Source of the DNA: a virus
Virus record (IMG/VR): IMGVR_UViG_3300024262_000019
Coordinates: 46,163-110,162 of that record
Strand: one strand, 5' to 3'
DNA: 64,000 nt
A model generated the notes under the pieces. The model had not been told where the DNA came from, did not search any database, and worked only from the letters and a program-made list of their open reading frames with translations. Position numbers and translations under genes: made by a program. Of this stretch, positions 16,075 to 63,708 are shown one piece after another (position 1 is the first letter of the stretch; every line of letters starts with the position of its first letter).

Positions 16075-18894
16075 TCATCTTCCTGGCATGCCCATCTTTA
16101 TCTCATTGATAAGCTGCCCTAACTCACCAAGACGCCTGGCTGTTTCATTGTTGGCGCCCATAATCGTATCTAGGTTGTCCTCAACCATTTTTTCGTGATC
16201 ACGGTTTCCTTGGAATAATTCCTTCTCAGTTATTGGCCTATATCCGAGTTGCTGTCTCATTTGTGGCCATCTGCTGGACAGACCCCCAGCAGTACGTATT
16301 GAATGACGTAGATCTTCGGCAGCCTGAGTACTTCCACCCATCACTCCTGCCATTTGTTGCTGAGCTGCAGCTTGTTGGGTTTGGATCTCAGCTTGGGCAG
16401 CCTGCTGTTGGATCTGTCCCTGGTTTTGAACATCCATTTGCAGACCCATCGCCCTTGCCTGAATCTCTGCATCACTCAACTGCTCCTGGTGACGCTCTTT
16501 GATGATGTATTCGATCTCTTCTTCGCTAAGTCCAAATACTTTCTGGAGAATCCAATGCAGAGAGACGAACTGCTGCATTCGCCCGGCGAAGTCTGCCTTG
16601 GCATTCCTGACCTCTAGCTGAGCAAGTTCGAAAATCGAACTCGGCGTCGTCATGCAGATTTCAAAATCGACTGCGGCTGGATTGATATTCAGAGCAGCCA
16701 GGTGAACCCTGGCCATCTTCTTCATCCCGTTCCTCAGTTCGCGCTGTAAACGAAGGACAGTACGGGCAAATCGCACATCCTCCTGAGACAGCACACCCTT
16801 GGCACGCGGAGCCTCCGACCCAAGATAGACCTTGGGCACCTTGATAGCCGCGTAGAGCTTCAGCTTGAAGTACTCGATATCCTCCATGTGCTGCCACGAC
16901 GGGCTGCCCACGACATCGATTTTGGTCTGCTGCACACCCTTGCGAACAGGGACGAAGAAGTCCTCATCCTGTGACAGGGGATTATATTTCAGATCAAGCT
17001 TGCCGGTCTGGGGATTATAGAACTTGGTCTTCTTGTACTGCTGACGGATCTTATGCAGGAATGCCATTGCCTCTTTTGGCGGCATATCTCCGACATCTAT
17101 ATAGAAAGCATACCGCTGAGGGGCTCGCTGCAGCCTGTAAACCATGGCCGCATCCTCAAGAAGCATAAGCCTCTTCCAGATCCACCTGGCCGGCTCAAGC
17201 ATCGAGTAACCGTAGATAGACCTACGATGCCTGGAGCGCATCCGGAAGTGTGCAACCTCCCAATCCTCCAGGGCGGCGTACTTATCCTGCGTCTGAGACC
17301 CAGCACCAGCCATGCGTTGCGTCAGAAGTTGCTTAAACTCATCCGGGCTGTACCCGAACCTGCCCTTGTAATCCTGGACAAACCCAAATAGCTCGCCTCG
17401 ACGACCTTCGATTCGTCGCATCGTAGGTGGTGGCAAGAAGTTCAAGCCAACCAACCCGTCCTGCGTAACCAGAAGCTCTTCGTAGTCGTTTCCGTACTTT
17501 ACTAAGGTTCTGGCTATCTCCCAGATTTCCTCATCCATACGAAGCCTACGCCAAAACAGATCTTCTAGAATCGTCTGGACTGTCTTGTCTGGACTGTCAA
17601 TCCAGACCGCCCTGTTCTGCAAGGACTCCGTCTGAGTGGCGTCATCGGCATATATGTCAATAGCACTGTTATGAACAACAACTCCGTTACATACGAAGTT
17701 GTGATACCCAGGCACCTCCAGGTCAAAAACCTCAGGTCGCTCATCCAGCTCCTCAACCCTAACCACTCTGTGGTTATTATCGTCCTCGATCAGGTCATAC
17801 CTGTCCAGGTTGCGCCTAGCGGTGCTCCATGAAACGTCAAGTATCCTTGCGGCCTCGGCAATGGTACCGCCAGAGGCATAGGCAGACTCAACCTGTTCCC
17901 GGCTCAGATCGATACGGTGTGCATCCCCTATTCTCTGTCGATGTATCGGAGATAGCGGCTTACCGCTGCGTGCCTCCGACTTACGTCGTCGAGTTTCAAG
18001 TGACTCACTCTTACCTTTCTTGTAAGAATTTCCAAGCATAGCCTTGGATTTTTCCATTCGCCGCTGAGCAGTCCACTCAGGTAAATACTCTGAATTATCA
18101 ATCTTAGCGATATGATGGAGCGCATGACTGGAGAAGCTCTCGACGCTTAGATTTTCAGGAGAGTTGTTGAGTTTATTTTCATCAATGTGATGAACGACGT
18201 CGCCAATTCCAGCGCCCATAAACCGCTCGCCAACAATCCTATGAACCCACGTCCATCGCTTCCCATCGGACGACCTGATCGTCGAGTCTGAATTTGGCTG
18301 ATGAACTTCCCAGTACGGATCTGCGGCACAGCTATTCAGAGATCTCGTCCGCAAGACGCCGGGCATCAAACGTTGACCAGTAGCGAGTTCGCCGGCCTGC
18401 ACCCACTTCTCATCCTTGGTGAAAAATAGATGGTCAGAGGTGCATACAATCTCCTGGCCGTTATCAAAGATAACCCTAACCATCTTCTTGGCATGACCGG
18501 CCTGTCCTGTAGCCCTAGCATTGCAAGCCCTTGCTGGAACCAATGACTTAGATTCCCTGTCATATGACAGGACATGGAAGTCACCGCCACGACTAGCCAG
18601 ATCCTCGATCCTCTCCCACCCGTATTCGAGTGTGAAAACACGAGAATCGCCATGCAGGCACGACAGCTCCGGGTAGTCGTCCATCTCCTCGTAGTCCACA
18701 AACCTAGCCATAAGGTCGTGTTCAAGCTTGAGGTAATCAGATAGGACGTCATGCCCATAAGCCTGAAGAAGATCGAATCCAGTCTGTGGATATCCCGACG
18801 CAGTTCCGCCCTTGGCAAGGTTAAGAACTACCTGTTCTTTATCCCAACGAAGTAGCCCACGGACCTGATGTCCAACATTTCCCCAGAATCCCAC
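16075..18894 (-). CDS. Portal protein interrupted by an intein
   Basis: 939 aa before splicing, 608 aa after. GTG start with AGGG seven bases upstream. Extein: residues 1-78 (LQAYGHDVLSDYLKLEHDLM, VDYEEMDDYPELS) and 410-939 (SAIDIYADDATQ, then IWEIARTLVKYGNDYEE, WKRLMLLEDAAMVYRLQRAP, GVLSQEDVRFARTVLRLQREL), the characteristic order of T4 gp20-like portals. The C-terminus is Gln/Ala-rich. Twelve portal subunits form the DNA entry ring that docks the terminase. The intein lies between Ser78 and Ser410, after the acidic N-terminal segment. Confidence 0.92.
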   Translation of the reverse strand: MGFWGNVGHQVRGLLRWDKEQVVLNLAKGGTASGYPQTGFDLLQAYGHDVLSDYLKLEHDLMARFVDYEEMDDYPELSCLHGDSRVFTLEYGWERIEDLASRGGDFHVLSYDRESKSLVPARACNARATGQAGHAKKMVRVIFDNGQEIVCTSDHLFFTKDEKWVQAGELATGQRLMPGVLRTRSLNSCAADPYWEVHQPNSDSTIRSSDGKRWTWVHRIVGERFMGAGIGDVVHHIDENKLNNSPENLSVESFSSHALHHIAKIDNSEYLPEWTAQRRMEKSKAMLGNSYKKGKSESLETRRRKSEARSGKPLSPIHRQRIGDAHRIDLSREQVESAYASGGTIAEAARILDVSWSTARRNLDRYDLIEDDNNHRVVRVEELDERPEVFDLEVPGYHNFVCNGVVVHNSAIDIYADDATQTESLQNRAVWIDSPDKTVQTILEDLFWRRLRMDEEIWEIARTLVKYGNDYEELLVTQDGLVGLNFLPPPTMRRIEGRRGELFGFVQDYKGRFGYSPDEFKQLLTQRMAGAGSQTQDKYAALEDWEVAHFRMRSRHRRSIYGYSMLEPARWIWKRLMLLEDAAMVYRLQRAPQRYAFYIDVGDMPPKEAMAFLHKIRQQYKKTKFYNPQTGKLDLKYNPLSQDEDFFVPVRKGVQQTKIDVVGSPSWQHMEDIEYFKLKLYAAIKVPKVYLGSEAPRAKGVLSQEDVRFARTVLRLQRELRNGMKKMARVHLAALNINPAAVDFEICMTTPSSIFELAQLEVRNAKADFAGRMQQFVSLHWILQKVFGLSEEEIEYIIKERHQEQLSDAEIQARAMGLQMDVQNQGQIQQQAAQAEIQTQQAAAQQQMAGVMGGSTQAAEDLRHSIRTAGGLSSRWPQMRQQLGYRPITEKELFQGNRDHEKMVEDNLDTIMGANNETARRLGELGQLINEIKMGMPGR
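17668..18660 (-). mobile_element. Portal intein with HNH endonuclease and HTH segment
   Basis: Residues 79-409 (331 aa). Block A starts with Cys79 (CLHGDSRVFT); block B is GQEIVCTSDHLFF; block F/G is EVFDLEVPGYHNFVCNGVVVHN with terminal His-Asn and Ser as the +1 residue, so all splicing residues are present. Between them is an HNH nuclease (WVHRIVGERFMG, VHHIDENKLNNSPENL) and a helix-turn-helix (TIAEAARILDVSWSTARRNL, about 345-363) that probably helps recognise the target site. Confidence 0.93.
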
Positions 18895-21685: not shown

Positions 21686-24600
21686 TCACCCCTGCAGGAA
21701 CGGCAGCATAATCGTATCGTCTTCAACCATCTCCCGCTGCTCCTCTGCCTCTGGATTGGAGAAGTTGGATATGCCTTTAATAACACCCATAGGAGATCCG
21801 TGGTAGCTGGTCGTCAAGCTGTACGTGATACCAGCCAATGCATCAGACACATCCTTACTGCCGAGGCGAGGATGATCAACCTTGTTGCGCACGTTATCTC
21901 GTTGAATCGACTTAAGCTCATCGAGCAACGGCTTGTAGTCATAGAAGCTGATGCGGTTCTCGTAGATCGCAGATTTCAAAACATCGTAGGCATCCATCGG
22001 CTTATCCACCGACAGCCTCTCGGCGGTGATGCCCTTCTTTGAGAACTTCTGAAGAGAGTCTGCTGAATTGAATTGATCCATCGTGACCAATCCAATTGAG
22101 AATCCGTAATGCTGGAATTGGTAAACGAGGGCTCTGATCATTCCATAGTCAATCTCCCCGCCGATCGGAGGGTTGATACGAAGCAGCATATCTACCCAGA
22201 CCCTAGGAGCTGGCTCTGTATATTGCTCCTGGGTCTCCGGGTCTCTGCGAACAATCGTCTTGTACCCAGTCACGCAGCCGATAGCAAAACCAGTCGAATC
22301 TGAGTTAAGTGATGGATCGATATGCACATGCCTGGCTAGCCCTGGGTAGAACTTAGGCTGCCATATCTGACTCATGCTAGCGCCTTCTCTGACGCTCACC
22401 TGCTTCGCCAGCTTCGTCCAATTGACACTTCCGCCGTCTGTTTGAACCCACTCCTCGACACTGAATGGATGCGACCTGTTCACATCGATACATGGGACGA
22501 TTTTGTCTAGCTGCTGAATGAAAGGAGAAACGGATACGGTCGCAATACCAGCAACGTCTCGAATCGAGTCTTCCAAGTTGTTATCAAAATCGTTCCTATA
22601 GTCGATAGGAACATCAACGATAACCATGCCCTCCTGGAGCTTCTCGCGGACCGCTTCCACCTCATCTGGCTCAAGTATCTTACTCGGCACCAGGTCATTG
22701 CCGACTAAAACGGAGAACATCTCCTCCGACAGGGTCCCTTTTGGCTTCACATGCCAGGTTGCATAGTCACGGACGAATAGCGTCGGATCGTCGGCTGATT
22801 CTTTAATCCTCTTGGCAGTAAAGTCATCCCTGGTCTGCTTAGAGGAAACGACAAGCATCATACCTGGAAGCTTGCCGTGCTTCTGGAATCGAGACTTCAT
22901 ACGACGCATCAGTTGGTCGTAGAGAAACTGAGCCCTGTCTCCACCGCCGAAACGGCTCTCCATGCCACCCTTCTTCTTCATGGGTGCCATGAAGTTAGAC
23001 TCGTCGATCATCGCCGCAAAAACGTTGAGACCAAGTGCCGCACTATCGGTCGATGCTCGCGCAGCAACCTGAACGTGGTTAGGGAATTGGATCTCCTTCT
23101 TGAGCGGCTTGTATGGAAAGTTCTCCATAAAATAATCGCTCTCTTTGATTTTGTTTACGATGTTCTCGAAGGCAACCTTAATCGCAAGGTCCTCCTTGAC
23201 CGACAGGACGATCAGCGTGATGTCAGATCCTTTACCGATGCCAAAGCTCTTGTGCGGATCTCGCATGCAGGACAGCTCATATAGAATCCTGCAAGCAGCT
23301 ATAGACGCGAAAAATGTGTTGTGAATAATGATGCCGTTAGCGACAGCATTCTCCGTCCCTGGAACAGTCAGGTCGTAAACATCATGCCATCCGATGTCAT
23401 CGATAGATTCGATACGCTCCCACACGACGTCCATATCAGCGAACTTGCGATACTCCCCCTGGTAACTCGTACTTCTACATAGCCTCTGGAATTTGTCGCG
23501 ACCCATGCAGGAGCCCTTAGCCAGGGCCCCGCCAGCATCATTCCACTCCTTATTGGTATGAGGACCAGTCTCCCTGCGGATGACCTTCAGCTCCTCTGTC
23601 GTTATCGGAACCAGGTCCCAGTTTGGATTGCCCTTGGTCGCTGACGCCTGAGCCAGCAACTTATCGCACTTAGACTCCTTGCCAGGGATTTTCCCAATGA
23701 ACTCAAGAAACCTAAGCTGCATTGGTGCATCGGCAATCTGAAGTCGCCATGCGTCGAACCACTCCTTGGTCCCATCATCCTGTTTAATAGACTTCTTATG
23801 GTGGCTCTTTCTGGCGACGACCCCGAATCGCCTTAGCAAATACTGGACATCGTCAATGAGCCCCTCGCTGGCGAGCGCAATTTCAATCTTACGAGGACTT
23901 CCCGTGTAAACGTTCCCATCCGTAAACAAGCGATTCAGAAACAAAGCAAGCTGGCGGCTGTTCAACCCAAAGAACTTAGCCGGAACGCGCTTCTCTTTGG
24001 ATAGGCAATCTATTCCAAGGCTACGCACCCAGTCCATGGCCCCTCGCACAGTCGTATACCAGGCACCGCGATCATATTTCTCACATCCGAATCCATCGAA
24101 CCCTGGGATGTGCTCAGCACATAACTTGAAGTCGCCAACAACTTCCTCGTCGCCTTTGATATAGACGCAGGAATTCGCAGTCAAGGAACCATCGGCAATC
24201 AAATAGGCAGCCACTTTGACGCACTCATCGGTAATCTCCAAAGTTGCAATCGGCTCAGGAACAGAGCGAGCGGCAGCCACAAAGCTGCCCGGTGCCAGGT
24301 CGAGTAGTGGCACATACCCTATTGGAGTAAGAACAGGGTGATCCTTACTTGCCTCCAGGTATTGTCCAGAGGCAAGGGTCATACGGAAGCACTGCTTGTG
24401 ACCACACTTCCAAATCTTGGATGGGGGTCGATGCGCGATCTCATTGCCATCAAGAGACGGAACCAGCACATCACGGTCCACGGCCTCTTCGATTGTCATT
24501 CTTCTCCCCGATACACCATCAACAAAAGAAGTCGTCGCTACGACCGATTTTCCCCATCCGATGCTGTTATGTACTTGAAATCCTTCACAAAAAAACGAAT

Positions 24601-25330
24601 TACCGTTAGGTACACCGATGTCTCCGACCTCAATCGTTCCGCCATCCCCTAGACCGTCAATACGAGCCCAGCCATCACTGGCAGTTCTAACGAAATCCTC
24701 CCCGGGAACAACATCTTTCGCCTCAACCCACCCACGACGAGTCATCACTTTATGCTCGGGTGTCAGGCGCAGGCTGGCCCCGTTGCTTACTGTAATCCTG
24801 ACAGTGTCGCGCACCCCTGAGTGCCTGGCTTCGATAGTTTCAGCAAAGCCGACCTTACCATCTGGATATGCAAGGACTCTTGGGGAGTCGCCGCTTGCAT
24901 CGAGGATCTGCCTGAGAGATGTGACCACTCCACCCTCCGCAACAATGCTTGCATCCAGATCTACACACCCCGTGAGAACTGCCTCACCGTAGTTGCCGCT
25001 GAACAGCTCCTTCATGTCCTCCTTGAGCTTTGGATAGAGCACATCGCATGTCTTCCCTAGGTAGTAGGGATCCATTACGAAGGTCTCAATATCCACCGGT
25101 CTTGTCTTGAACTCAGCCTCATTGAGAACATCTATGATCCTTGGAGGCCCCTCCTCTCCTTCGACCATCTGCAGTTCATTAAATGCCGGGTCGTCCATCT
25201 CCTTGAGGCACAGCAAGACCGCCTCCCTCTCCTCCGGGGAAAGACTATCGAACTCATCCTTGAGAAGCTTGACCACCTCCTCCGGGGTCTGCTCGCTACG
25301 AACGCGACCACCTAAATCCCTGATCGCCAT
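21686..25330 (-). CDS. terL: Large terminase subunit carrying two inteins
   Basis: 1214 aa before splicing, 670 aa after. GGAGGAG precedes the ATG. After removing both inteins the Walker A motif reads G-SIGWGK-T followed by FFASIAACRILYEL; Walker B is NVFAAMIDESNFM. The C-terminal nuclease shows HIDPSLNSDSTGFAIG, LVTMDQFNSADSL and KDVSDALAGITYSL, the three acidic clusters of an RNase H-fold terminase nuclease. The enzyme cuts concatemers and pumps DNA through the portal. The first intein lies between Gly121 and Ser256, the second between Lys261 and Thr672. The small-subunit candidate ends one base upstream. Confidence 0.95.
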   Translation of the reverse strand: MAIRDLGGRVRSEQTPEEVVKLLKDEFDSLSPEEREAVLLCLKEMDDPAFNELQMVEGEEGPPRIIDVLNEAEFKTRPVDIETFVMDPYYLGKTCDVLYPKLKEDMKELFSGNYGEAVLTGCVDLDASIVAEGGVVTSLRQILDASGDSPRVLAYPDGKVGFAETIEARHSGVRDTVRITVSNGASLRLTPEHKVMTRRGWVEAKDVVPGEDFVRTASDGWARIDGLGDGGTIEVGDIGVPNGNSFFCEGFQVHNSIGWGKSVVATTSFVDGVSGRRMTIEEAVDRDVLVPSLDGNEIAHRPPSKIWKCGHKQCFRMTLASGQYLEASKDHPVLTPIGYVPLLDLAPGSFVAAARSVPEPIATLEITDECVKVAAYLIADGSLTANSCVYIKGDEEVVGDFKLCAEHIPGFDGFGCEKYDRGAWYTTVRGAMDWVRSLGIDCLSKEKRVPAKFFGLNSRQLALFLNRLFTDGNVYTGSPRKIEIALASEGLIDDVQYLLRRFGVVARKSHHKKSIKQDDGTKEWFDAWRLQIADAPMQLRFLEFIGKIPGKESKCDKLLAQASATKGNPNWDLVPITTEELKVIRRETGPHTNKEWNDAGGALAKGSCMGRDKFQRLCRSTSYQGEYRKFADMDVVWERIESIDDIGWHDVYDLTVPGTENAVANGIIIHNTFFASIAACRILYELSCMRDPHKSFGIGKGSDITLIVLSVKEDLAIKVAFENIVNKIKESDYFMENFPYKPLKKEIQFPNHVQVAARASTDSAALGLNVFAAMIDESNFMAPMKKKGGMESRFGGGDRAQFLYDQLMRRMKSRFQKHGKLPGMMLVVSSKQTRDDFTAKRIKESADDPTLFVRDYATWHVKPKGTLSEEMFSVLVGNDLVPSKILEPDEVEAVREKLQEGMVIVDVPIDYRNDFDNNLEDSIRDVAGIATVSVSPFIQQLDKIVPCIDVNRSHPFSVEEWVQTDGGSVNWTKLAKQVSVREGASMSQIWQPKFYPGLARHVHIDPSLNSDSTGFAIGCVTGYKTIVRRDPETQEQYTEPAPRVWVDMLLRINPPIGGEIDYGMIRALVYQFQHYGFSIGLVTMDQFNSADSLQKFSKKGITAERLSVDKPMDAYDVLKSAIYENRISFYDYKPLLDELKSIQRDNVRNKVDHPRLGSKDVSDALAGITYSLTTSYHGSPMGVIKGISNFSNPEAEEQREMVEDDTIMLPFLQG
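23318..24547 (-). mobile_element. Terminase intein 2, LAGLIDADG type, inside Walker A
   Basis: Residues 262-671 (410 aa). Starts with Ser262 (SVVATTSFVDG), block B YLEASKDHPVLTP, and ends HDVYDLTVPGTENAVANGIIIHN, with Thr as +1 residue. The endonuclease helices are VKVAAYLIADGSL (about 371) and LALFLNRLFTDGNV (about 461). The Ser1/Thr+1 chemistry differs from intein 1. Insertion between Lys and Thr of the P-loop is the same relative site as in the helicase gene. Confidence 0.93.
24566..24967 (-). mobile_element. Terminase intein 1, mini-intein without endonuclease
   Basis: Residues 122-255 (134 aa). Cys122 starts block A (CVDLDASIVAEGG), block B is ASLRLTPEHKVMTRRG, and the end is GNSFFCEGFQVHN with Ser256 next. 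The length leaves no room for a homing nuclease, so it can splice but no longer spread by itself. It lies between the first Gly and the Ser of the P-loop. Confidence 0.93.
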
Positions 25331-45524: not shown

Positions 45525-45806
45525 TCACAAATCGTCTAAAAAAGACGTATCGCAGCTCATGGGTAAGTCTAACTTTTTGAGTATTTTACCATGAAAACCA
45601 GACACTTCCCTGGTGCACTCTCTATCTCCTAGCATATGCAAAGCTATCGAGTCACGGTGCAGGGCGCTAGCCTTGACAATGTCATAGCCTAAGCGCTCAA
45701 TGTTGAGTCGAAGGTCAACCGCAAAGAAAGAGTTACTGCTGATACCCTGGTCACAGCGCCAGCACTTTGCGTAGAAATCCAATGGGGGCAAATCAGAATG
45801 GTACAT
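45525..45806 (-). CDS. Small hypothetical protein after helicase
   Basis: 93 aa from ATG 45806 (GGGGA eight bases upstream), overlapping the helicase end by 14 bases. MYHSDLPPLDFYAKCWRCDQG holds a C-x2-C pair; later CTREV and CDTS add two cysteines, so a zinc site is possible. The rest is mixed helix. Unknown. Confidence 0.58.
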   Translation of the reverse strand: MYHSDLPPLDFYAKCWRCDQGISSNSFFAVDLRLNIERLGYDIVKASALHRDSIALHMLGDRECTREVSGFHGKILKKLDLPMSCDTSFLDDL

Positions 45807-48378
45807 CGCCATAATCCCCACTGTCATCTACCTCATCGCTCACGCCATACATGGCATCTCCGCCACCAGTATCAGGACCAACCGGAGGCGGAAGACCTGG
45901 ACCACCATCACCGCCAACCTCGGTGAAATCCATCGTGGAGTGGTTCCAGTTGATCTCAAAGGTCCCAGGCACACCCTCACGAATCTTCAAAGCCTTGAGA
46001 TTTAGCTTAGCGTTAGATCTCATATCTTCATCCTGCATCATTCCGTAGGCGCTATCAGCATTCCAGCCAGCAACGTCGGTGATGCCGATATTGTCAGCCG
46101 AGATCGTCTGATCTTGCCCAGTCTTAGCCGACCGGTTGAACTGCAAGTTGGTAATCGTCGCAACGCCAGTGCGCTTACCAATCTTCTTGAAGTCATCGAA
46201 GTTATTCGACACACGCTCATGTCGATCTTTACCGCTGTTCTTAATCAGGTACGGACCATCAACGCAGAGCAGGTGTGGTTTCTCATCCTCAACGACCGCA
46301 GCAATGTTGTCGATGGAATAATCAAAGTCACCGGCGATGATGTTCATCCCCTTCTCCTTGAGAAGCTCATCCACACCGGCGTACAGTTTGCTTTCTACAA
46401 ATTCTCCGAGCTTACCCCTTCTCACTTCGTTGTAGGGAAGGTTGAGGTGTAACGAGAAGAATCGCCTCGCCATCTGCCTCTTGTTCATCTCTGTGGAAAC
46501 GATAAGAACGTTGTGTTGCCTAGACCTCCACGCAGCATGTGCGCAGATAACTAGAGCCCATGTATTATGGAGAATGATGTCGTTTCCTATGAAGCAGCTC
46601 GTCGGCTCCACGGTGAGGTCATATATCTTCTGCTCGCCAACCGATTTCACCGATAACACTGAATCCCAAAATATATCCGCCCCCCATAACCACTTAAATT
46701 CATCACAACAATCAAAGATCTCGCAGAATACTTTAAATCTACGAATCAGAAGTGAATCGCCTTTTCCAAAAAGGCTTCGGAACATGAACTTGCTATTCCA
46801 TCCGAGGGCCTGTCCAACTTTAACAAGCTTCCCGCCATTCCATCTTCCGGATCCAGGGTCAGCAATCTCACGAATGCGTGCCTTCAGCTTTTCTGAAATC
46901 TTAGGAAATCCAACATTTGAATTCCTGTCCCTACCGAGCAGTTCAGTAAACGACTCTAACTTCTCACCCCATAGCGAAATAGCTACAGAAAAGGACTCCC
47001 ACGAAGAGGCGTAGACTCTGAGTCTCCATGAGTCGAAATCCTTGCCATTGCAGGATGATTTTTTATAAGAGACACTGCTCTGAATTCCAAAGCGAAGAAG
47101 CAGGCTTTGAATCTGCCTAACCATTCTTTCGGAGGCGAGTACGATCGTTGGGCCTGTGTCATCGACATACCCATCACACATCCAAAATATCGACAGGAAC
47201 CTCGAAAGTTGAATTGGCGGAAGCTGATACACTTCGTCTGGTATTGTCTTACTTACTGCTTTTTTCTTATCAATTCCAAGATCTCTTAGTATTTTGCCGA
47301 CAATACTAACCCGATCAACTACGCCGGTGAAGTCATAATCACATCCGGATCGATAGACAACCTCTGCCCCGATAGCATGAGCGGCATCCCTGGCAATCGA
47401 TAAAATATCCTCGTCTATATTACTGAACCCAACATGGTTTCCCGTGTAGCTACCCTCGGCCAACAGGATGGCTAGTATATCGACGACAGGATCATCCATG
47501 GCGACAGGTGACTCCGGGAATGGCATCTTCGCTGGCAAGGCCAGAGAATCATTTACTGATATATTTTCAGCATTAACCCATCCATCCGGAGTCAGAACAG
47601 GATGTTCTGGAGTCACAATCACGGATCTGCCGGATGACATCGTAATCTCAATACACTCCTTGCGGCCAGTATCCACTTTAGCTGTTATGGGAGTGGCAAA
47701 AACCCCGCCATCCTTGGACCAGGTAGTTACGGAGTGATGTGATTCATCACTGTAAACGTCCCTGATTGCCTTCGGTATCCCAGTCGTAGGATCAACTATC
47801 TCAGTATCCTCGTGTACGCATTTTCCTACGCCAAGTCGGCCAACGAATAAGATCAAATCCTCCGGCCACCAGCCCAACGTCTGATCGTCCATGGATGGCC
47901 ATGGAGTAGCAATGCCACGCTTACCAGCCTTGGCATCTTCGTAATCCTCGATCACCAGGCTACCTAGAGCCAAGAGACTCTCAACCTTGCGCACGGTGAG
48001 TGACTCAGTCTGAATCTTTCTATGGATTTCTGCCCATATCTCGGCAGCACCATCTGGATCTCTGGCGGCCAGGCTGTTGGAAACCTGCTCTATGCCATCT
48101 CGCTGAACTAGGAAGAGTCTACGTTTAAAGATCTCTCCGAGATAAAACCCGGAGATACCCTCATTGCTTCCAGATAAGTCAAATCCAGTAGCACCCTCTA
48201 CGGCCCCCAGAGGGGGAAGCTCGCCGTGAGTTCGATAGCTATCAGCTATGAACTGCCAGGCTGCTTTGCCCTCGCCAAATAAATGATCTTCTGCGTTTAG
48301 ATCTCTACCGATACAATCAAGGTAGGCATCCTTGCCCTCGCGAAGTACGGAGCGAACAAGCTCCTTATCCATATCCAT
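45793..48378 (-). CDS. dnaB: DnaB-like replicative helicase interrupted by an intein
   Basis: 861 aa before splicing, 442 aa after. Extein: N-terminal helical domain (residues 1-125), then TPWPSMDDQTLGWWPEDLILFVGRLGVGK-T (Walker A) and, after the intein, WALVICAHAAW, VLIVSTEMNKRQMARRFFSLHL, PHLLCVDGPYLIK (Walker B) and GVATITNLQFNRSA (motif H4 area). This is the RecA-fold of hexameric 5'-3' helicases. The C-terminus DDSGDYGDVPF imitates an SSB tail. The loader gene and initiator lie just upstream in the operon. Confidence 0.92.
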   Translation of the reverse strand: MDMDKELVRSVLREGKDAYLDCIGRDLNAEDHLFGEGKAAWQFIADSYRTHGELPPLGAVEGATGFDLSGSNEGISGFYLGEIFKRRLFLVQRDGIEQVSNSLAARDPDGAAEIWAEIHRKIQTESLTVRKVESLLALGSLVIEDYEDAKAGKRGIATPWPSMDDQTLGWWPEDLILFVGRLGVGKCVHEDTEIVDPTTGIPKAIRDVYSDESHHSVTTWSKDGGVFATPITAKVDTGRKECIEITMSSGRSVIVTPEHPVLTPDGWVNAENISVNDSLALPAKMPFPESPVAMDDPVVDILAILLAEGSYTGNHVGFSNIDEDILSIARDAAHAIGAEVVYRSGCDYDFTGVVDRVSIVGKILRDLGIDKKKAVSKTIPDEVYQLPPIQLSRFLSIFWMCDGYVDDTGPTIVLASERMVRQIQSLLLRFGIQSSVSYKKSSCNGKDFDSWRLRVYASSWESFSVAISLWGEKLESFTELLGRDRNSNVGFPKISEKLKARIREIADPGSGRWNGGKLVKVGQALGWNSKFMFRSLFGKGDSLLIRRFKVFCEIFDCCDEFKWLWGADIFWDSVLSVKSVGEQKIYDLTVEPTSCFIGNDIILHNTWALVICAHAAWRSRQHNVLIVSTEMNKRQMARRFFSLHLNLPYNEVRRGKLGEFVESKLYAGVDELLKEKGMNIIAGDFDYSIDNIAAVVEDEKPHLLCVDGPYLIKNSGKDRHERVSNNFDDFKKIGKRTGVATITNLQFNRSAKTGQDQTISADNIGITDVAGWNADSAYGMMQDEDMRSNAKLNLKALKIREGVPGTFEINWNHSTMDFTEVGGDGGPGLPPPVGPDTGGGDAMYGVSDEVDDSGDYGDVPF
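46564..47820 (-). mobile_element. Helicase intein, LAGLIDADG type
   Basis: Residues 187-605 (419 aa), placed between Lys186 and Thr606 of Walker A. Block A CVHEDTEIVDP, block B RSVIVTPEHPVLTP, endonuclease helices VDILAILLAEGSY (Glu replaces the first Asp) and LSRFLSIFWMCDGYV, and C-terminal KIYDLTVEPTSCFIGNDIILHN with Thr +1. All splicing residues are intact; loss of the first Asp may weaken the nuclease. Confidence 0.93.
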
Positions 48379-59257: not shown

Positions 59258-59334
<77 letters not shown>

Positions 59335-59354
59335 ATTTCAACCCAAAGAACACA

Positions 59355-59531
59355 ATGTCCTCCTTATCCATCAAACATACGCAACCCACCGCCAAGAGCA
59401 CAAGCTCATGGCAACTGGGGAATATTGTGTCGTGTCTGAATGCGGTAGTCGGCTTGGAAACAGAGTATCTCTTTGGACTTAGCACCCAGGCCCGCGCAAA
59501 TGATCCGAAGCAAAGGGTGGCTTTCACATAA
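59355..59531 (+). CDS. Possible 58-aa protein between tRNA genes
   Basis: ATG 59355 to TAA 59531 in the 262-base gap after tRNA-Met, ending just before a terminator. Product SSLSIKHTQPTAKST then LGNIVSCLNAVVGLETEYLFG reads like protein, but no ribosome site is visible. The terminator directly after its stop favours a real transcript end. Low confidence. Confidence 0.3.
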   Translation: MSSLSIKHTQPTAKSTSSWQLGNIVSCLNAVVGLETEYLFGLSTQARANDPKQRVAFT

Positions 59532-59558
59532 GTAACTAATCAAAATTACTTATAGATG

Positions 59559-59590
59559 AGCCACCCAGGGAAACCAGGGTGGCTTTTTTA
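59559..59590 (+). terminator. Plus-strand terminator
   Basis: AGCCACCC (59559-59566) pairs with GGGTGGCT (59577-59584), followed by TTTTTTA. A second stem ATAAGTAA/TTACTTAT lies just before it. Confidence 0.82.
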
Positions 59591-59596
59591 GTTTCT

Positions 59597-59680
59597 GGGT
59601 GTGTTGGGCAGGCGGTGAGCCCACTTGACTGTAAATCAAACGCTTCGGCTTTAGTGGTTCGATTCCACTCACGCCCACCA
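59597..59680 (+). tRNA. tRNA-Tyr (GTA)
   Basis: 84 nt, CCA encoded. Acceptor GGGTGTG/CACGCCC with one T-G pair, anticodon loop CTGTAAA, class II variable arm, T-arm AGTGG/CCACT. Confidence 0.93.
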
Positions 59681-59698
59681 GAGAAAAAGGAAATGAAA

Positions 59699-59764
59699 AT
59701 GACAGAAACCAAACGAAAACATAGGCTTACTCCATATATTTATGGGCCTATGGCGCAATGGTAG
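59699..59764 (+). CDS. Possible 21-aa peptide ending inside tRNA-Lys
   Basis: ATG 59699 with AAGGA seven bases upstream; product MTETKRKHRLTPYIYGPMAQW stops at a TAG in the D-arm of the tRNA-Lys gene. Very short, so chance is possible, but it repeats the pattern of reading frames that stop inside tRNA genes here. Confidence 0.25.
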   Translation: MTETKRKHRLTPYIYGPMAQW

Positions 59765-59815
59765 CGCATCTGACTTTTAATCAGGTGGTTCTCAGTTCGA
59801 ATCTGAGTGGGCCCA
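59744..59815 (+). tRNA. tRNA-Lys (TTT)
   Basis: 72 nt without encoded CCA. Acceptor GGGCCTA/TGGGCCC, anticodon loop CTTTTAA on CTGA/TCAG, T-arm CTCAG/CTGAG. Confidence 0.92.
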
Positions 59816-59823
59816 CCGACTGA

Positions 59824-59897
59824 TCGGGGATCGTCTAACGGTAGGACGGTAGTTTCTGAAGCTGCTTACCAAGGTTCGAATCCTTGTCCCCGAACCA
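59824..59897 (+). tRNA. tRNA-Gln (CTG)
   Basis: 74 nt, CCA encoded. Acceptor TCGGGGA/TCCCCGA, loop TTCTGAA, T-arm AAGG/CCTT. Confidence 0.92.
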
Positions 59898-60018
59898 AGC
59901 TGAAGTATTTGTGACACGAGAGTTAGCCAATGGCTGCGAGGGTGAACGGTACTATCGGCAGAAAAAGACCTCACATCGGTGGGGCAAAAAGATCTGATAA
60001 TTGAATAGTTTACGATGC

Positions 60019-60044
60019 AGGGGCGTTAGCCGCGCCCCTTTTTA
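60019..60044 (+). terminator. Plus-strand terminator before tRNA-Phe
   Basis: AGGGGCG/CGCCCCT stem with a short loop and TTTTTA. It lies within the tRNA array, so downstream tRNAs need read-through or another promoter. Confidence 0.75.
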
Positions 60045-60045
60045 T

Positions 60046-60122
60046 GCCCCGATAGCTCAGACTGGTAGAGCAGTGGTTTGAAGAACCGCGTGTCGGCAGT
60101 TCAATTCTGTCTCGGGGCACCA
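60046..60122 (+). tRNA. tRNA-Phe (GAA)
   Basis: 77 nt, CCA encoded. Acceptor GCCCCGA/TCGGGGC, loop TTGAAGA, T-arm GGCAG/CTGTC with one G-T pair. Confidence 0.93.
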
Positions 60123-60126
60123 TTAT

Positions 60127-60194
60127 AGGCAGCGTTCTGGGAACAGATTGATCTCCAAAGTCGATCGCGCAGAGTTCGATTCTCTGGCTGCCTG
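60127..60194 (+). tRNA. tRNA-Trp (CCA), very short D-loop
   Basis: 68 nt, no encoded CCA. Acceptor AGGCAGC/GCTGCCT is perfect; loop CTCCAAA; T-arm CAGAG/CTCTG. The D-arm is only TCTG-GGAA-CAGA, a four-base loop, and the usual base between D and anticodon stems is absent. Confidence 0.75.
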
Positions 60195-60199
60195 CAAAT

Positions 60200-60272
60200 G
60201 GGTTCATGGCGCAATTGGCAGCGCATCCGGTTCTTACCCGGCAGGTTGCGAGTTCGACTCTCGCTGAGCCCA
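60200..60272 (+). tRNA. tRNA-Lys (CTT)
   Basis: 73 nt, no encoded CCA. Acceptor GGGTTCA/TGAGCCC, anticodon loop TTCTTAC on CCGG/CCGG, T-arm GCGAG/CTCGC. Similar to the tRNA-Lys (TTT) gene upstream, suggesting duplication and anticodon change. Confidence 0.82.
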
Positions 60273-60292
60273 CTAAATGATAGAGTGATCGC

Positions 60293-60478
60293 ATGTTCGG
60301 ATCACTCGTAGAAGAGATACGGTTAGAGACCGTGAAGAAGGACACAACCAACGCCCTCCCGGCCATCATGGATAGGGGACGAAAGATCGTCACTCACATG
60401 CAGCATAGCGGGCATTACACTCGCTCTCAGCTACGTAAGATGGGACTTGAACCTAAATGGAAGAAGAAAATCGGATGA
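60293..60478 (+). CDS. Small basic protein in the tRNA array
   Basis: 61 aa. GSLVEEIRLETVKKDTTNALPAIMDRGRKIV is helical and the end is strongly basic (TRSQLRKMGLEPKWKKKIG). GAG seven bases before the ATG. Its stop overlaps the next start (ATGA), a sign that both are real. Function unknown. Confidence 0.6.
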   Translation: MFGSLVEEIRLETVKKDTTNALPAIMDRGRKIVTHMQHSGHYTRSQLRKMGLEPKWKKKIG

Positions 60479-60696
60479 AAGACCCAAGACCACAGGTCGG
60501 ACTCATGCTGGCTGACCATAATTGCCCAGGTGGGAATATCTGGATCTGGACAGATGACGACGGGAAGCCGTTCATGGCCAAGTGCAGCATGTGTGACCAG
60601 GAGATCAAAGTCATGCTCGATGTTCCCAGTAGTCCAATCCTTCATGTCGTTACCGAAGAGGAACGGATTCAGAAAATCAAGAGCATGGCTATCTAG
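60475..60696 (+). CDS. Small zinc-pair protein coupled to the gene before
   Basis: 73 aa from ATG 60475 (ATGA overlap). ADHNCPGGNIWIWTDDDGKPFMAKCSMCDQEIKVML has a Cys and a C-x2-C pair on a beta ribbon, like small zinc-ribbon proteins. The last base of its TAG stop is the first base of tRNA-Ser (CGA). Confidence 0.65.
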   Translation: MKDPRPQVGLMLADHNCPGGNIWIWTDDDGKPFMAKCSMCDQEIKVMLDVPSSPILHVVTEEERIQKIKSMAI

Positions 60697-60785
60697 GAAG
60701 CGCTAGCCGACAGCTGGCGACGGCAACCGGCTCGAACCCGGTCGAGGCTTAATCGCCCTTAGGAGTTCGACCCTCCTCGCTTCCG
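60696..60785 (+). tRNA. tRNA-Ser (CGA)
   Basis: 90 nt, no encoded CCA. Acceptor GGAAGCG/CGCTTCC perfect, anticodon stem ACCGG/CCGGT with loop CTCGAAC, long variable arm, discriminator G typical for Ser. Confidence 0.93.
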
Positions 60786-61016
60786 CTACTCTTTAGCAGC
60801 TGGCATCACTGGCTTCTCATCGTCCTTGGCAGCCGGCATGGCGTCCATGGATACGGCAGGGCCAGCATCGGCTGGAGCGACAGGCATAGCGTCCATGAGG
60901 GTGGCAGGAGCTTCTACGGTAGGGGTAGCACTGGCTGCGTCATCTGTGACAGCCTTCTTCTGAGAGGAGCTGCAGCTGAGGGCGAGAATGGCCGTTAGGG
61001 CAAATAAGAATTTCAT
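60786..61016 (-). CDS. Probable small lipoprotein
   Basis: 76 aa on the opposite strand to the tRNAs. MKFLFALTAILALSC is a short signal peptide with Cys15 as the likely lipidated residue (A-L-S-C is a loose lipobox). The rest is Ala/Pro/Asp-rich with imperfect repeats (MDAMPVAPAD, MDAMPAAKDD). It may be an outer spanin or a cell-surface exclusion protein; a two-membrane host is hinted. The stop abuts the tRNA-Ser end. Confidence 0.65.
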   Translation of the reverse strand: MKFLFALTAILALSCSSSQKKAVTDDAASATPTVEAPATLMDAMPVAPADAGPAVSMDAMPAAKDDEKPVMPAAKE

Positions 61017-61063
61017 GGAGAGCTTCTACCGCATAAGCGATAGATCTTGCAACCATCCACCAG

Positions 61064-61249
61064 CTAGCGCTCTTGAGCAGCCTTCTTGCCCTGCTGGCGA
61101 GTGGCCTTCTTCAGGGCCTTAAGGGCTGCCTGCTTCTCTCCAGGGGAAGTCATTCGACCTCGATAGCTGTGAGGCTGGCTGACTTTTGGTTGAGAGCCGC
61201 CACCCTGGGCAGACTCGACTCTGATGGCTTCAATCAACTGCTGGAACAT
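61064..61249 (-). CDS. Small basic hypothetical protein
   Basis: 61 aa. N-terminal helix FQQLIEAIRVESA, a Gly/Ser/Gln linker, then EKQAALKALKKATRQQGKKAAQ, an Ala/Lys helix like those of histone-like tails. It precedes the lipoprotein gene on the same strand. No ribosome site of note; moderate doubt. Confidence 0.45.
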   Translation of the reverse strand: MFQQLIEAIRVESAQGGGSQPKVSQPHSYRGRMTSPGEKQAALKALKKATRQQGKKAAQER

Positions 61250-61278
61250 GCCAGCGACTCTACAACAATTTTATATTT

Positions 61279-61353
61279 GGTGCCGGAAGAGGCTGGGTCA
61301 TCGACTTCACTGTCTATGAAGTAAGGGGGGTTCAATTCCCCTCGGCACCGCCA
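61279..61353 (+). tRNA. tRNA-Asp (GTC)
   Basis: 75 nt, CCA encoded. Acceptor GGTGCCG/CGGCACC, anticodon stem CTTCA/TGAAG with loop CTGTCTA, discriminator G as usual for Asp. Confidence 0.88.
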
Positions 61354-61359
61354 ATTATT

Positions 61360-61430
61360 CACGAATATTCAGGTATAACGATCATCTGAAAACACGGTTA
61401 TGCATGAATATTCATGAATAACGATTGATC
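61360..61430. repeat. Pair of 27-base direct repeats
   Basis: 61360-61386 and 61403-61430 share CA-GAATATTCA then ATAACGAT and ATC with few changes. The second copy includes the palindrome CATGAATATTCATG (61403-61416). Spacing of 43 bases suggests a paired protein-binding site in the gap after tRNA-Asp. Confidence 0.5.
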
Positions 61431-61645
61431 CAGGGTGGGACCTGGTGAGGCTATAGCCCGACACAATAGTCCTCTCACTGCAACTAACTCCTCAGTTGAT
61501 GTTGCACGGAGGGGTGAAGGTTGGGAGCGATTACGGAGCTGAGGGCAACGTAGCGCGTCTAGCTGGAGTTCTGAGGGGGATACCCCGTTGAGGAAAACCA
61601 AAACCCACGACCTGGCAGGGGTAACTCGGTCAGGTCGTTAAATTT
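61431..61645 (+). other. Unassigned GC-rich stretch with hairpins
   Basis: No convincing gene on either strand. Several inverted repeats are visible (CCAGG/CCTGG at 61430-61445; ACGACCTG/CAGGTCGT at 61607-61638 followed by TTAAATTTT). Bounded by the direct-repeat pair and tRNA-Ala. A structured RNA ending in a weak terminator is possible; nothing matches a known RNA family by eye. Confidence 0.4.
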
Positions 61646-61647
61646 TC

Positions 61648-61716
61648 GGGGTGAGCGGCGGGCCGCAGCCGATCCTTGCAAGATCAGCTTCCTGGGTTCA
61701 ACTCCCAGTCATTCCA
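61648..61716 (+). tRNA. tRNA-Ala (TGC)
   Basis: 69 nt, no encoded CCA. Acceptor GGGGTGA/TCATTCC includes the G3-U70 pair that identifies tRNA-Ala. Loop CTTGCAA on a stem with one mismatch; T-arm CTGGG/CCCAG. Position 8 is G rather than T. Reading the loop one base later would give Cys (GCA), but the stem then fails. Confidence 0.75.
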
Positions 61717-61720
61717 CTAC

Positions 61721-61794
61721 GGGGTTATCGTCCAACGGTAAGACACGGGTCTGGCAGACCTGGGATCAGAGTTCGATTCTCTGTAGCTCCACCA
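61721..61794 (+). tRNA. tRNA-Ala (GGC)
   Basis: 74 nt, CCA encoded. Acceptor GGGGTTA/TAGCTCC again has G3-U70. Anticodon loop CTGGCAG on CGGGT/ACCTG, T-arm CAGAG/CTCTG. Confidence 0.85.
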
Positions 61795-61797
61795 GCA

Positions 61798-61826
61798 TTG
61801 ACAATAGGCGCCTAAGCGAATGAAAT
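61798..61826 (+). promoter_or_regulatory. Possible promoter before the protease-like gene
   Basis: TTGACAATAGG at 61798; TGAAAT after 17 bases is a weak -10. TTGACAAT recurs at 62585 and 63709 on this strand, also between a tRNA and a gene. Confidence 0.45.
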
Positions 61827-62241
61827 GCGGACCATGGCTGACACAGACAAAACACTCACCAATACGATTCTTACGGCTGGCAAGGTCACTGCGAGTGGCA
61901 GTATCTACCCCAAGGAAGTCCTTGAGAAGGCCGTCCGTGAGTATGCTGAGAGGCCCGGCGACAGCTACGGTGGAGTAGAAGATGGCCTGCCACTCAGCCT
62001 GGGCAAGGTCACCCATAGAATCACGGATGTCAGAATGGACGGCGACGATGTGATCGCCTCGGCAGTCATCATGGACACGCCGGAAGGCATGAAGATTAAG
62101 GCGATGCTTGAGAATGGTGGGGATGATCGAATATCTCTCTCATCCAAGGGCTATGGCCGCACTGATGAGAATGGAACGATCGACAGGTTCAGCCTCGACT
62201 CCATCAACATCAGCTTAGATCCTGGAAAGGCAAGCCAATAG
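61825..62241 (+). CDS. Truncated capsid-protease paralogue, catalytic His missing
   Basis: 138 aa (ATG 61834 is an alternative start). SLGKVTHRITDVRMDGDDVIASAVIMDTPEGMKIKAMLENGG then ISLSSKGYG, and FSLDSINISLDP, match segment by segment the phage's own head protease (TSHIISDLHLEGDVVIGTAHILDTDQGRNLKAIL, GVSSRGFG, MTFDFVADP). The GELDHP motif with the catalytic His has become a GGVEDG stretch, and the scaffold part is absent. So it is a stand-alone, possibly inactive or altered-specificity relative. Its 3' end overlaps tRNA-Ser (GCT) by 18 bases. Confidence 0.8.
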   Translation: MRTMADTDKTLTNTILTAGKVTASGSIYPKEVLEKAVREYAERPGDSYGGVEDGLPLSLGKVTHRITDVRMDGDDVIASAVIMDTPEGMKIKAMLENGGDDRISLSSKGYGRTDENGTIDRFSLDSINISLDPGKASQ

Positions 62242-62316
62242 CCGGCGATGGCACTTCTCTGCTAAAGAAGCGAGCCCGAAAGGGCCTTGCGAGTTCGACC
62301 CTCGTCCTTTCCGCCA
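62224..62316 (+). tRNA. tRNA-Ser (GCT)
   Basis: 93 nt, CCA encoded. Acceptor GGAAAGG/CCTTTCC, anticodon stem CTTCT/AGAAG with loop CTGCTAA, variable arm GAGCCCGAAAGGGCCT region, disc. G. The first 18 bases are also the last codons of the gene before. Confidence 0.92.
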
Positions 62317-62330
62317 CGCAAGCGCTTGCG
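62317..62330. repeat. 14-bp palindrome CGCAAGCGCTTGCG, copy 5
   Basis: Begins at the base right after the CCA of tRNA-Ser (GCT). Flanks A before and CA after follow the oriented consensus. Confidence 0.85.
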
Positions 62331-62344
62331 CAGATAACAATTTA

Positions 62345-62419
62345 CGGAGTGTAGGGTAGTGGTGACCCACTTGGTTTGGGACCAAGTCAACGCAGGTTCG
62401 AATCCTGTCACTCCGACCA
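62345..62419 (+). tRNA. tRNA-Pro (TGG)
   Basis: 75 nt, CCA encoded. Acceptor CGGAGTG/CACTCCG (C1-G72 as usual in Pro), anticodon stem CTTGG/CCAAG with loop TTTGGGA. Confidence 0.93.
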
Positions 62420-62423
62420 ATTT

Positions 62424-62499
62424 GCGGCTGTAGCTCATCTGGTAGAGCGCTTCGTTGCCAACGAAGAGGTAGCGGGATCGTACCCCGCCAGCCGCTCCA
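62424..62499 (+). tRNA. tRNA-Gly (GCC)
   Basis: 76 nt, CCA encoded. Acceptor GCGGCTG/CAGCCGC, loop TTGCCAA on CTTCG/CGAAG, discriminator T as expected for Gly. Confidence 0.93.
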
Positions 62500-62504
62500 A
62501 TTAT

Positions 62505-62579
62505 GGCGAGTGTAGCTCAATGGTAGAGCATCCGGTTGTGGTCCGGACGACGAGGGATCGATACCCTTCACCCGCCCCA
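62505..62579 (+). tRNA. tRNA-His (GTG)
   Basis: 75 nt with G-1 opposite C73, CCA encoded. Anticodon stem TCCGG/CCGGA, loop TTGTGGT. One A-C mismatch in the acceptor stem. Confidence 0.88.
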
Positions 62580-62584
62580 ATTTA

Positions 62585-62612
62585 TTGACAATGGGATTCA
62601 GATCTATAGAGT
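62585..62612 (+). promoter_or_regulatory. Possible promoter before the small membrane protein
   Basis: TTGACAATGGG at 62585; TATAGA follows after 14 bases or TAGAGT after 16. Same -35 block as at 61798 and 63709. Confidence 0.5.
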
Positions 62613-62624
62613 GGTCCGCTACCT

Positions 62625-62861
62625 ATGACTATAGATATCCCTATATGGATGGCAGCTGCGATATCTATCGTAGCCTTCTTTGGCTACATGGCTATAGGGC
62701 TGATCGTCACCCTTGAGACAGATCGTCTCAAAATGGGAAGTCTTGATGAGAAGTTCATCATCCCTATCCTGGTCACATGGCCAGTCACTATTCCCGTATT
62801 GCTCATGCTGGAAACCTGGGCCAAGAGGCGACGGGAAGAGAACAAGCTAAACGGACTATAA
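62625..62861 (+). CDS. Two-helix membrane protein in the tRNA region
   Basis: 78 aa. Helix 1 about residues 7-29 (IWMAAAISIVAFFGYMAIGLIV), helix 2 about 45-62 (FIIPILVTWPVTIPVLLML), then a basic end (WAKRRREENKLNGL). Ribosome site weak, but a promoter-like TTGACA lies 35 bases upstream. Could be an inner-membrane exclusion or lysis factor; unknown. Confidence 0.62.
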   Translation: MTIDIPIWMAAAISIVAFFGYMAIGLIVTLETDRLKMGSLDEKFIIPILVTWPVTIPVLLMLETWAKRRREENKLNGL

Positions 62862-62864
62862 TTT

Positions 62865-62910
62865 GCGGGTATCGTCTAACGGTAGGGCCTCGTAGGATCT
62901 GCTACCATAC
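62865..62910 (+). pseudogene. 5' half of a tRNA gene, truncated beside an HNH gene
   Basis: GCGGGTA as acceptor strand, TC, then the D-arm GTCTAACGGTAGGGC, identical for 13 bases to that of tRNA-Gln (59824). After a distorted anticodon arm (GTAG-GATCTG-CTAC) the HNH coding sequence begins and no matching TACCCGC 3' strand follows in the window. Confidence 0.65.
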
Positions 62911-62916
62911 TCCTGT

Positions 62917-63648
62917 ATGGGAAATGGCAAATGTAAATACTGCGGCTTCGATCTCCCTGGGGGAAGGATGTCCGGGGCTCATATAACTAATTGCAGTGAA
63001 AATCCGAACCGTCATGCAATTCGTAAAAAGATAGCAAAGTCAGCAACGAAGAGGATCCCATTTACCCTGGACTGCAGCGTTTGTTATGAGCCATATGTAC
63101 AGGAGATCACGCCAAAGGCTCTAGAGAATGGTCGCTACAAGAAATGCTGTTCGCTTGTGTGCTCATCATCTATAGGACAGAGGGCCAGCAGAAGGAATAG
63201 GGAAGAGCTTGCCAAATTTGGTGTTGATGGTCGCCGGTGTGGCTGCGGGGAGAGGAAGGCTAGAAGATCTAAGAGCTGCCAGTTGTGCTCAAGGAAGAAA
63301 TTGCTAATTGCATCCTTGCAGGAAACGCTGGGGAGTCTCAAAGGTAAAGCCAAAGGTCGGGCTAGGCATATGTTCCAAGGTGTACGGAATAATGCCCATA
63401 GGGTTGTTGATATACTCAATGTTGGATCATTGAATTCATGTAGGAGGGCAGGGTGTGAATACAAGGTTCACGCCGAGCTTGCACATCTCAGGGATATATC
63501 AAGCTTCCCTGACTCAGCCATTCTTGGCGAGATCAACGATACTAAGAACCTGGCATTGCTATGCAGGAATTGTCACTGGGAATATGACAATGGTCTTATC
63601 GGAGACGGAGAGATTATATCGATTTTTGATATCGCTGGGGTGGTGTAA
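62917..63648 (+). CDS. HNH endonuclease with zinc-finger array, inserted among tRNAs
   Basis: 243 aa. N-terminal C-x2-C-x13-H-x3-C finger (CKYCGFDLPGGRMSGAHITNC), a second Cys group (CSVCYEPY ... KKCCSLVCSS), a third (CGCGERKARRSKSCQLCSRKK), then an HNH core CRRAGCEYKVHAELAHLRDI and NLALLCRNCHWEYDNG. Such modular zinc-finger HNH proteins are typical mobile endonucleases. It starts right after a truncated tRNA and ends 15 bases inside tRNA-Gly (TCC). Confidence 0.88.
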   Translation: MGNGKCKYCGFDLPGGRMSGAHITNCSENPNRHAIRKKIAKSATKRIPFTLDCSVCYEPYVQEITPKALENGRYKKCCSLVCSSSIGQRASRRNREELAKFGVDGRRCGCGERKARRSKSCQLCSRKKLLIASLQETLGSLKGKAKGRARHMFQGVRNNAHRVVDILNVGSLNSCRRAGCEYKVHAELAHLRDISSFPDSAILGEINDTKNLALLCRNCHWEYDNGLIGDGEIISIFDIAGVV

Positions 63649-63704
63649 CGGCAACACGAGTGGCTTCCATCCACTTATCGAGGGTTCGAATCCCTTCCCC
63701 AGCT
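63634..63704 (+). tRNA. tRNA-Gly (TCC)
   Basis: 71 nt, no encoded CCA. Acceptor GCTGGGG/CCCCAGC, anticodon stem AGTGG/CCACT with loop CTTCCAT, T-arm GAGGG/CCCTT with G-T closure, discriminator T. Its first 15 bases are the end of the HNH gene. Confidence 0.9.
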
Positions 63705-63708
63705 CTAA

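Follow-up and report, generated by a model that had tools for sequence, protein, structure and literature searches.

Two inteins in one Walker A motif of the large terminase subunit of a T4-type phage

In the 64,000-nucleotide stretch of viral DNA analyzed here (the window; bases 46163–110162 of the 110,162-base IMG/VR virus record IMGVR_UViG_3300024262_000019), the gene encoding the large terminase subunit (TerL) carries two inteins inside a single Walker A motif (P-loop), separated by a bridge of only six extein residues. Genes for a T4-type portal, a prohead protease and a UvsX-like protein are also present in the record. An initial annotation, made from the letters alone, had described this arrangement, and the two-intein anatomy of the P-loop was confirmed: the coordinates, the lengths (134, 410 and 670 amino acids (aa)) and the junction residues were all exact on re-reading, and the motif is split as G / SIGWGK / T, with no intact P-loop in the precursor. 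The explanation considered most probable (about 0.8) is that two inteins of homing families independently colonized both ends of one Walker A motif, intein 2 being the mobile element and intein 1 an endonuclease-less hitch-hiker. The components of the gene are as follows.

21686..25330, minus strand: TerL precursor open reading frame (ORF), 1214 aa, comprising the 670-aa spliced TerL and two inteins (ORF reading, tblastn)
24968..25330, minus strand: N-extein, residues 1–121, ending ...GNYGEAVLTG (first Walker A glycine)
24566..24967, minus strand: intein 1, CVDLDAS...GFQVHN, 134-aa mini-intein, no endonuclease
24548..24565, minus strand: six-residue extein bridge SIGWGK, central part of Walker A (contiguous in L002, see below)
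23318..24547, minus strand: intein 2, SVVATTS...GIIIHN, 410 aa, LAGLIDADG
21689..23317, minus strand: C-extein, from TFFASIAAC onward (final Walker A residue, remaining ATPase, nuclease)

Structure of the precursor and of the two inteins

With both inteins taken out, the frame yields a 670-aa TerL reading LTGSIGWGKTFFAS, with the canonical Walker A motif GSIGWGKT, and the predicted ligated product across both splice junctions is LTGSIGWGKTFF. When the spliced TerL was used as a tblastn query, 360 GenBank phage records were matched, 311 of them covering at least 80% of the query and many annotated as TerL; these relatives ranged from Vibrio SIO-2-like phages to Streptomyces and Gordonia phages, with identities below 40%. 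The Walker A motif of the spliced protein and its homology to annotated TerL proteins over most of its length identify the product as a terminase large subunit, in agreement with the initial annotation. The precursor frame was unbroken, the junction residues were intact at all four splice points, and the guanine–cytosine (GC) content was even along the gene. The signature HN[STC]xxxGK[C/S] occurred once in the window versus 0 expected in shuffles. The P-loop is encoded in three pieces; the motor would be inactive until both inteins are gone, and the Walker A motif would be useless unless both splice perfectly. The annotation's further claim that the order of splicing matters found no support, since the hexapeptide and the −1/+1 residues (G/S for intein 1 and K/T for intein 2) are identical whichever intein leaves first, and the sequence therefore imposes no order.

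Intein 1 has the residues of a class 1 intein, namely, Cys1, TPEH in block B, EVGDIGV (containing GDI) in block F, a terminal HN and Ser at +1. Taken alone, it scored under the curated cut-off of Pfam Intein_splicing (2.7e-6) and above the cut-off of NCBIfam intein_Nterm (8.1e-7). Its AlphaFold model (predicted local distance difference test (pLDDT) 85.9) resembled the DnaB and RecA mini-inteins of the PDB, the best match being Ssp DnaB (1mi8, template modelling scores 0.80/0.87), and by its modelled fold intein 1 can be assigned with confidence to the mini-inteins. A model of the double region was weak over intein 1 (no aligned relatives; pLDDT mostly below 50), and the relative geometry of the two inteins in it is not interpretable. 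A direct search for homologues of intein 1 in viral contigs and GenBank phages gave weak matches only, among them an Oceanotoga TerL, which carries an intein at K/S (here and below, the slash in a site name marks the insertion point).

Intein 2 likewise has class 1 features, with Ser1, SKDH in block B, YDL, a terminal HN and Thr at +1. It matched Pfam Intein_splicing (5.7e-16, above the cut-off), NCBIfam intein_Cterm (3.1e-7) and LAGLIDADG_3 (1.9e-10). Both LAGLIDADG motifs, VAAYLIADGS and LFLNRLFTDGN, keep their aspartates, and the endonuclease is apparently intact, judging by these motifs. In the model of the double region, the intein 2 part was mostly at 80–95 pLDDT and matched endonuclease-bearing inteins (best TliVMA, 7qss, E 5e-20). 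The LAGLIDADG_3 match was confined to intein 2, with none in intein 1, in keeping with the annotated pairing of one endonuclease-less and one LAGLIDADG intein. The position of intein 2, SIGWGK/TFF, is the K/T P-loop site known as TerL1-a in mycobacteriophages (Kelley et al. 2016, PMC5050341); the same study showed splicing and endonuclease activity for TerL inteins. Intein 1 lies outside that site, at G/SIGWGK, six residues upstream (site 1).

Occupied and empty sites in related terminases

The closest relative, L002 (IMG/VR, IMGVR_UViG_3300033407_000001, a 199.6-kb genome), encodes a 670-aa TerL with 92.5% aa identity, no inserts and a contiguous P-loop. The DNA of the window and L002 is collinear except for breaks at 24969/23320 (the TerL inteins) and 18668/17664 (a portal intein at 17668–18660), and the ends of the TerL inteins agree with the alignment breaks within 2–3 bases. 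Intein splicing profiles had no matches in the L002 genome, compared with four inteins in the record that holds the window, and L002 represents a natural intein-free partner of the window phage. The TerL of L003 (about 70% identical) contains intein 2 only, at the same K/T, and its site 1 is empty. Insertion sites were also contiguous in L031–L038, and when nine TerL fragments were aligned with MAFFT, the gaps fell at the predicted intein ends. Comparison with terminases lacking both inteins (L002) or intein 1 alone (L003), which the initial annotation had proposed, thus showed continuity at the empty sites; the inserts do not appear as ordinary sequence in homologues, and no other P-loop is needed. 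The ratio of nonsynonymous to synonymous substitutions (dN/dS) of the extein relative to L002 was about 0.04 (0.052/1.30), which indicates strong purifying selection.

On a TerL tree of 39 sequences, occupancy of the K/T site changed 8 times, at least 7 of these changes being required by well-supported branches, and its clustering did not exceed that of shuffles. L039 has a TerL close to that of the window, yet its K/T intein is only 38% identical to intein 2, and L111 has a distant TerL, yet its K/T intein is 52% identical. Such patchy occupancy and intein/extein discordance form the pattern expected of homing, as read from the sequences. At the same time, the aa identities of intein 2 and extein were alike between the window and L003 (69.5% and 69.6%, respectively) and between the window and L004 (62.8% and 67.7%), which suggests that this copy of intein 2 may have been long resident in the lineage and lost from L002, a suggestion that saturated synonymous sites keep from being firm.

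In a first TerL survey, comprising the best 79 of 209 viral relatives and 25 genome contigs, site 1 was occupied in the window only; later pattern scans revealed other cases. The IMG/VR-wide scan used the pattern G-[hydrophobic]-x-[hydrophobic]-HN-[STC]-xxx-GK-[C or S], which passes over site-1 inteins placed before an intact GKT and those with other spacings, and the counts are therefore lower bounds and not frequencies. Three further TerL genes, all of uncultured phages, proved to be doubly occupied; their contigs bear three other sample codes (3300018080, 3300017971 and 3300035497). In L135, the bridge is SIGWGK (six residues), with a 418-aa LAGLIDADG intein followed by one of 405 aa, also LAGLIDADG; in L136/L157, it is SIGFGK (six residues), between inteins of 367 and 417 aa; and in L137, it is SIGIGKS (seven residues), between a 471-aa HNH-family intein and one of 264 aa. 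Site 1 alone was occupied in at least four distinct TerL proteins (L139/L140, L141, L144/L147 and L142, the latter represented by the C-terminal end of the intein at a contig edge). In all scan-found site-1 and double cases, one frame ran through into a recognizable TerL. The initial annotation had called such clustering very unusual: its rarity stands, and its uniqueness does not, given the three further double TerLs and at least four more with site 1 alone. In GenBank phages, no site-1 relatives were found at tblastn sensitivity (best about 24% identity, the insertion sites of those matches being uninspected).

Phylogenetic analysis of the splicing domains united intein 1 and the site-1 inteins carried by L135, L136, L139, L141 and L144 in one clade (support 100/97.7), whereas the K/T inteins formed a separate clade (89/88); HNH inteins also fell outside the site-1 clade. 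Intein 1 thus shares both insertion point and clade with the site-1 family, and its best BLAST matches were the site-1 inteins of L135 (2e-11) and L139 (4e-10). Its start, CVDLDAS, is similar to CVDLNS of L139, and block F (VGDIG..GN.F) is common to both. Full LAGLIDADG domains were detected in the site-1 inteins of L135 (2e-18) and L139 (1.7e-18); by motif, the site-1 endonuclease is intact in L135, L141 and L144 and degenerate in L136 and L139, and in the window the whole domain is gone. It should be noted that the site-1 inteins of L135, L136 and L144 start with SIGLD, echoing the extein SIG at the other end, and that the ends of the L144 site-1 intein carry an 11-base-pair (bp) direct repeat, TCCATCGGCTT, which could permit scar-free deletion.

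The splicing-domain phylogeny also shows, at the level of sequence, the separate origin of inteins 1 and 2. The initial annotation had reached the same conclusion from the different splice chemistries; the conclusion held, and the argument did not, because Ser1 (L003, L111) and Cys1 (L004, L039) alternate within the one K/T family, with Ser or Thr at +1, and the nucleophile is therefore no marker of lineage. Two other origins considered for intein 1 were discarded: an identity of 25.6% and different clades rule out that it is a duplicate of intein 2, and derivation from the K/T intein of the same phage's DnaB, which gave the best match (34% over 88 aa) in an initial, smaller set, was dropped after the site-1 family emerged.

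The open-licence literature yielded no published account of an intein site at G/S, nor of a P-loop holding two inteins. Inteins as a kind and the TerL1-a site are already known; the G/S site and double occupation of the P-loop are apparently undescribed. In the available text of PMC5050341, the mycobacteriophage TerL1-a is like intein 2 in being a TerL P-loop intein at the same K/T site, TerL1-a and TerL1-b are given as alternative sites a single residue from each other, with no statement found of both being filled in one gene, and the G/S site is not among sites a–g as described there. For adjacent, tandem or double inteins, the open-licence literature offered nothing nearer than the haloarchaeal MCM-a/MCM-d pair (PMC10643990), in which two close inteins likewise occupy one ATPase, one of them directly after the Walker A lysine. 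There, however, the two insertion points are in separate regions of the catalytic domain and each endonuclease is active, whereas the pair in the window lies within one 8-residue motif and one endonuclease has been deleted. A delta-group crAss-like phage TerL with two inteins (PMC7886860) is also a multi-intein TerL of an uncultured phage, but in the part of that source available no close spacing is reported and the inteins are coupled with stop-codon recoding.

Two inteins in one ATPase are also found in a cellular helicase. In the DnaB of Mycobacterium smegmatis, only one of the two interrupts the P-loop, the other being inserted at a different place in the protein. This pair (DnaBi1/DnaBi2) resembles that of the window in occupying one P-loop ATPase (PMC6195587), and one of its two members is cited as a mini-intein (PMC10643990).

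Origin and maintenance of the double insertion

According to the proposed explanation, the packaging ATPase of a T4-type myophage would have been the target of two unrelated homing lineages, one at either end of its P-loop. Both inteins would splice independently, excising themselves from the TerL precursor, probably in no fixed order, and ligation of G, SIGWGK and T would assemble the P-loop. Intein 2, at K/T, would be the mobile driver and intein 1, at G/S, the passenger: descended from a site-1-specific LAGLIDADG intein and having lost the entire endonuclease, intein 1 would persist by splicing and by carriage 18 bp from the insertion point of intein 2, as a satellite or hitch-hiker. With the insertion points this close, repair of a cut made by the intein 2 endonuclease should nearly always copy intein 1 too. 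Reliance of an endonuclease-less intein on the co-homing of its neighbor has been raised for the haloarchaeal inteins, with the frequency of such carriage left open (PMC10643990).

Several points weigh against this explanation. Intein 1 alone scores under the curated Pfam threshold, and with no close relative known for it, purifying selection on it is not measurable. Neighboring inteins of Haloferax hinder each other's homing, though there both endonucleases are active (PMC10643990). Decay of the site-1 endonuclease also occurs where intein 2 is absent (the degenerate motifs of L139), and the loss therefore need not depend on a neighbor. Finally, double occupancy could be partly ancestral with repeated loss, not gained each time.

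In its full form, the last point holds that double occupancy is an old state of the TerL lineage, mostly lost, and not the outcome of repeated invasion. The similar intein 2 and extein identities among the window, L003 and L004 are in its favor, as are the SIGLD starts and the L144 repeat, which would allow clean deletion. The TerL tree, however, needs 5 changes of the site-1 label (at least 4 forced) and 7 of the K/T label (at least 5 forced), and the L137 site-1 intein belongs to the HNH family, so that at least that double is independent; an old, mostly lost state is considered unlikely. Since the doubly occupied TerLs are dispersed over the tree and the L137 site-1 intein is of this unrelated family, double occupancy is concluded to have arisen more than once; in counting the origins, losses can mimic gains.

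It is also unlikely that the pair is a regulatory device, in which two conditional splicing steps delay activity of the packaging ATPase to late infection and both inteins are retained by selection in addition to selfish spread. Both do sit in the catalytic P-loop, double occupancy recurs in four TerLs, and conditional splicing is known for P-loop inteins of DnaB and RadA (PMC6195587, PMC5790916 and PMC7360933). Against this, the TerL of the closest relative is intein-free, as is the rest of the L002 genome by the profiles used, occupancy is patchy and largely unclustered, and the portal and DnaB inteins of the same phage fit a general infestation.

The divergence of intein 1, its length of 134 aa, the missing endonuclease and the Pfam score below the cut-off would suit a dead, non-splicing remnant or a cleavage-only Hint domain. 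This is improbable, as Cys1, TPEH, the block F aspartate, HN and Ser+1 are all retained, the AlphaFold fold is confidently that of a mini-intein, and the extein is under strong purifying selection, with which prolonged failure of precursor splicing would not fit. An assembly artefact or a chimera of two TerL alleles, conceivable in a metagenomic contig, can practically be dismissed in view of the single open frame, the four intact splice points, the uniform GC content and the same architecture in contigs of three other sample codes.

Of the natural intein pairs found, none is tighter than that of the window, where two complete inteins stand six residues apart. With it, the first glycine of Walker A becomes a second site at which inteins recur. 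It may be suggested, tentatively, that double occupation of Walker A is a repeatable state, whether as an endonuclease-less obligate satellite 18 bp from a homing intein or as a two-step gate on motor assembly. The natural series of TerL genes (empty, intein 2 only, site 1 only and both), which spans stages of endonuclease loss, makes testable the hitch-hiking of an endonuclease-less intein on its neighbor and the interference or dependence of adjacent inteins in splicing. Very short extein peptides might also be inserted or scanned with the pair, which is a naturally occurring tandem intein.

Other inteins and neighboring features

Outside the TerL gene, the following features were identified in the window.

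17668..18660, minus strand: HNH intein, 331 aa, in the T4-type portal gene (16075–18894), absent from the otherwise collinear L002
46564..47820, minus strand: LAGLIDADG intein (the fourth), 419 aa, at the Walker A K/T of a DnaB-like helicase (45793–48378)
59258–63705, plus strand: cluster of 13 tRNA genes

The junctions in the DnaB-like helicase read GRLGVGK/CVHED...ILHN/TWALV, and its intein groups with the TerL K/T inteins in the splicing-domain tree. Among the related terminases, three-intein TerLs were found in L135 (2487–6704) and L137 (2770–6936), each with two inteins in the P-loop and one further on, and in L004 (431–5140), where a K/T intein in the P-loop is followed by two HNH inteins. 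A further TerL intein site lies deep in the nuclease half (L151/L152, about aa 1000–1370; L039), with the sequence C(M/L)(A/V)AGTMV...NGFVSHN followed by S. In the TerL of Rhodobacter phage RcMenchie (L029, 1052–4192; annotated as terminase), Arg is the first residue of the K/T insert, block F contains Cys, and the +1 residue is Thr; by these residues the insert looks like a class 3 intein at the same site in a cultured phage.

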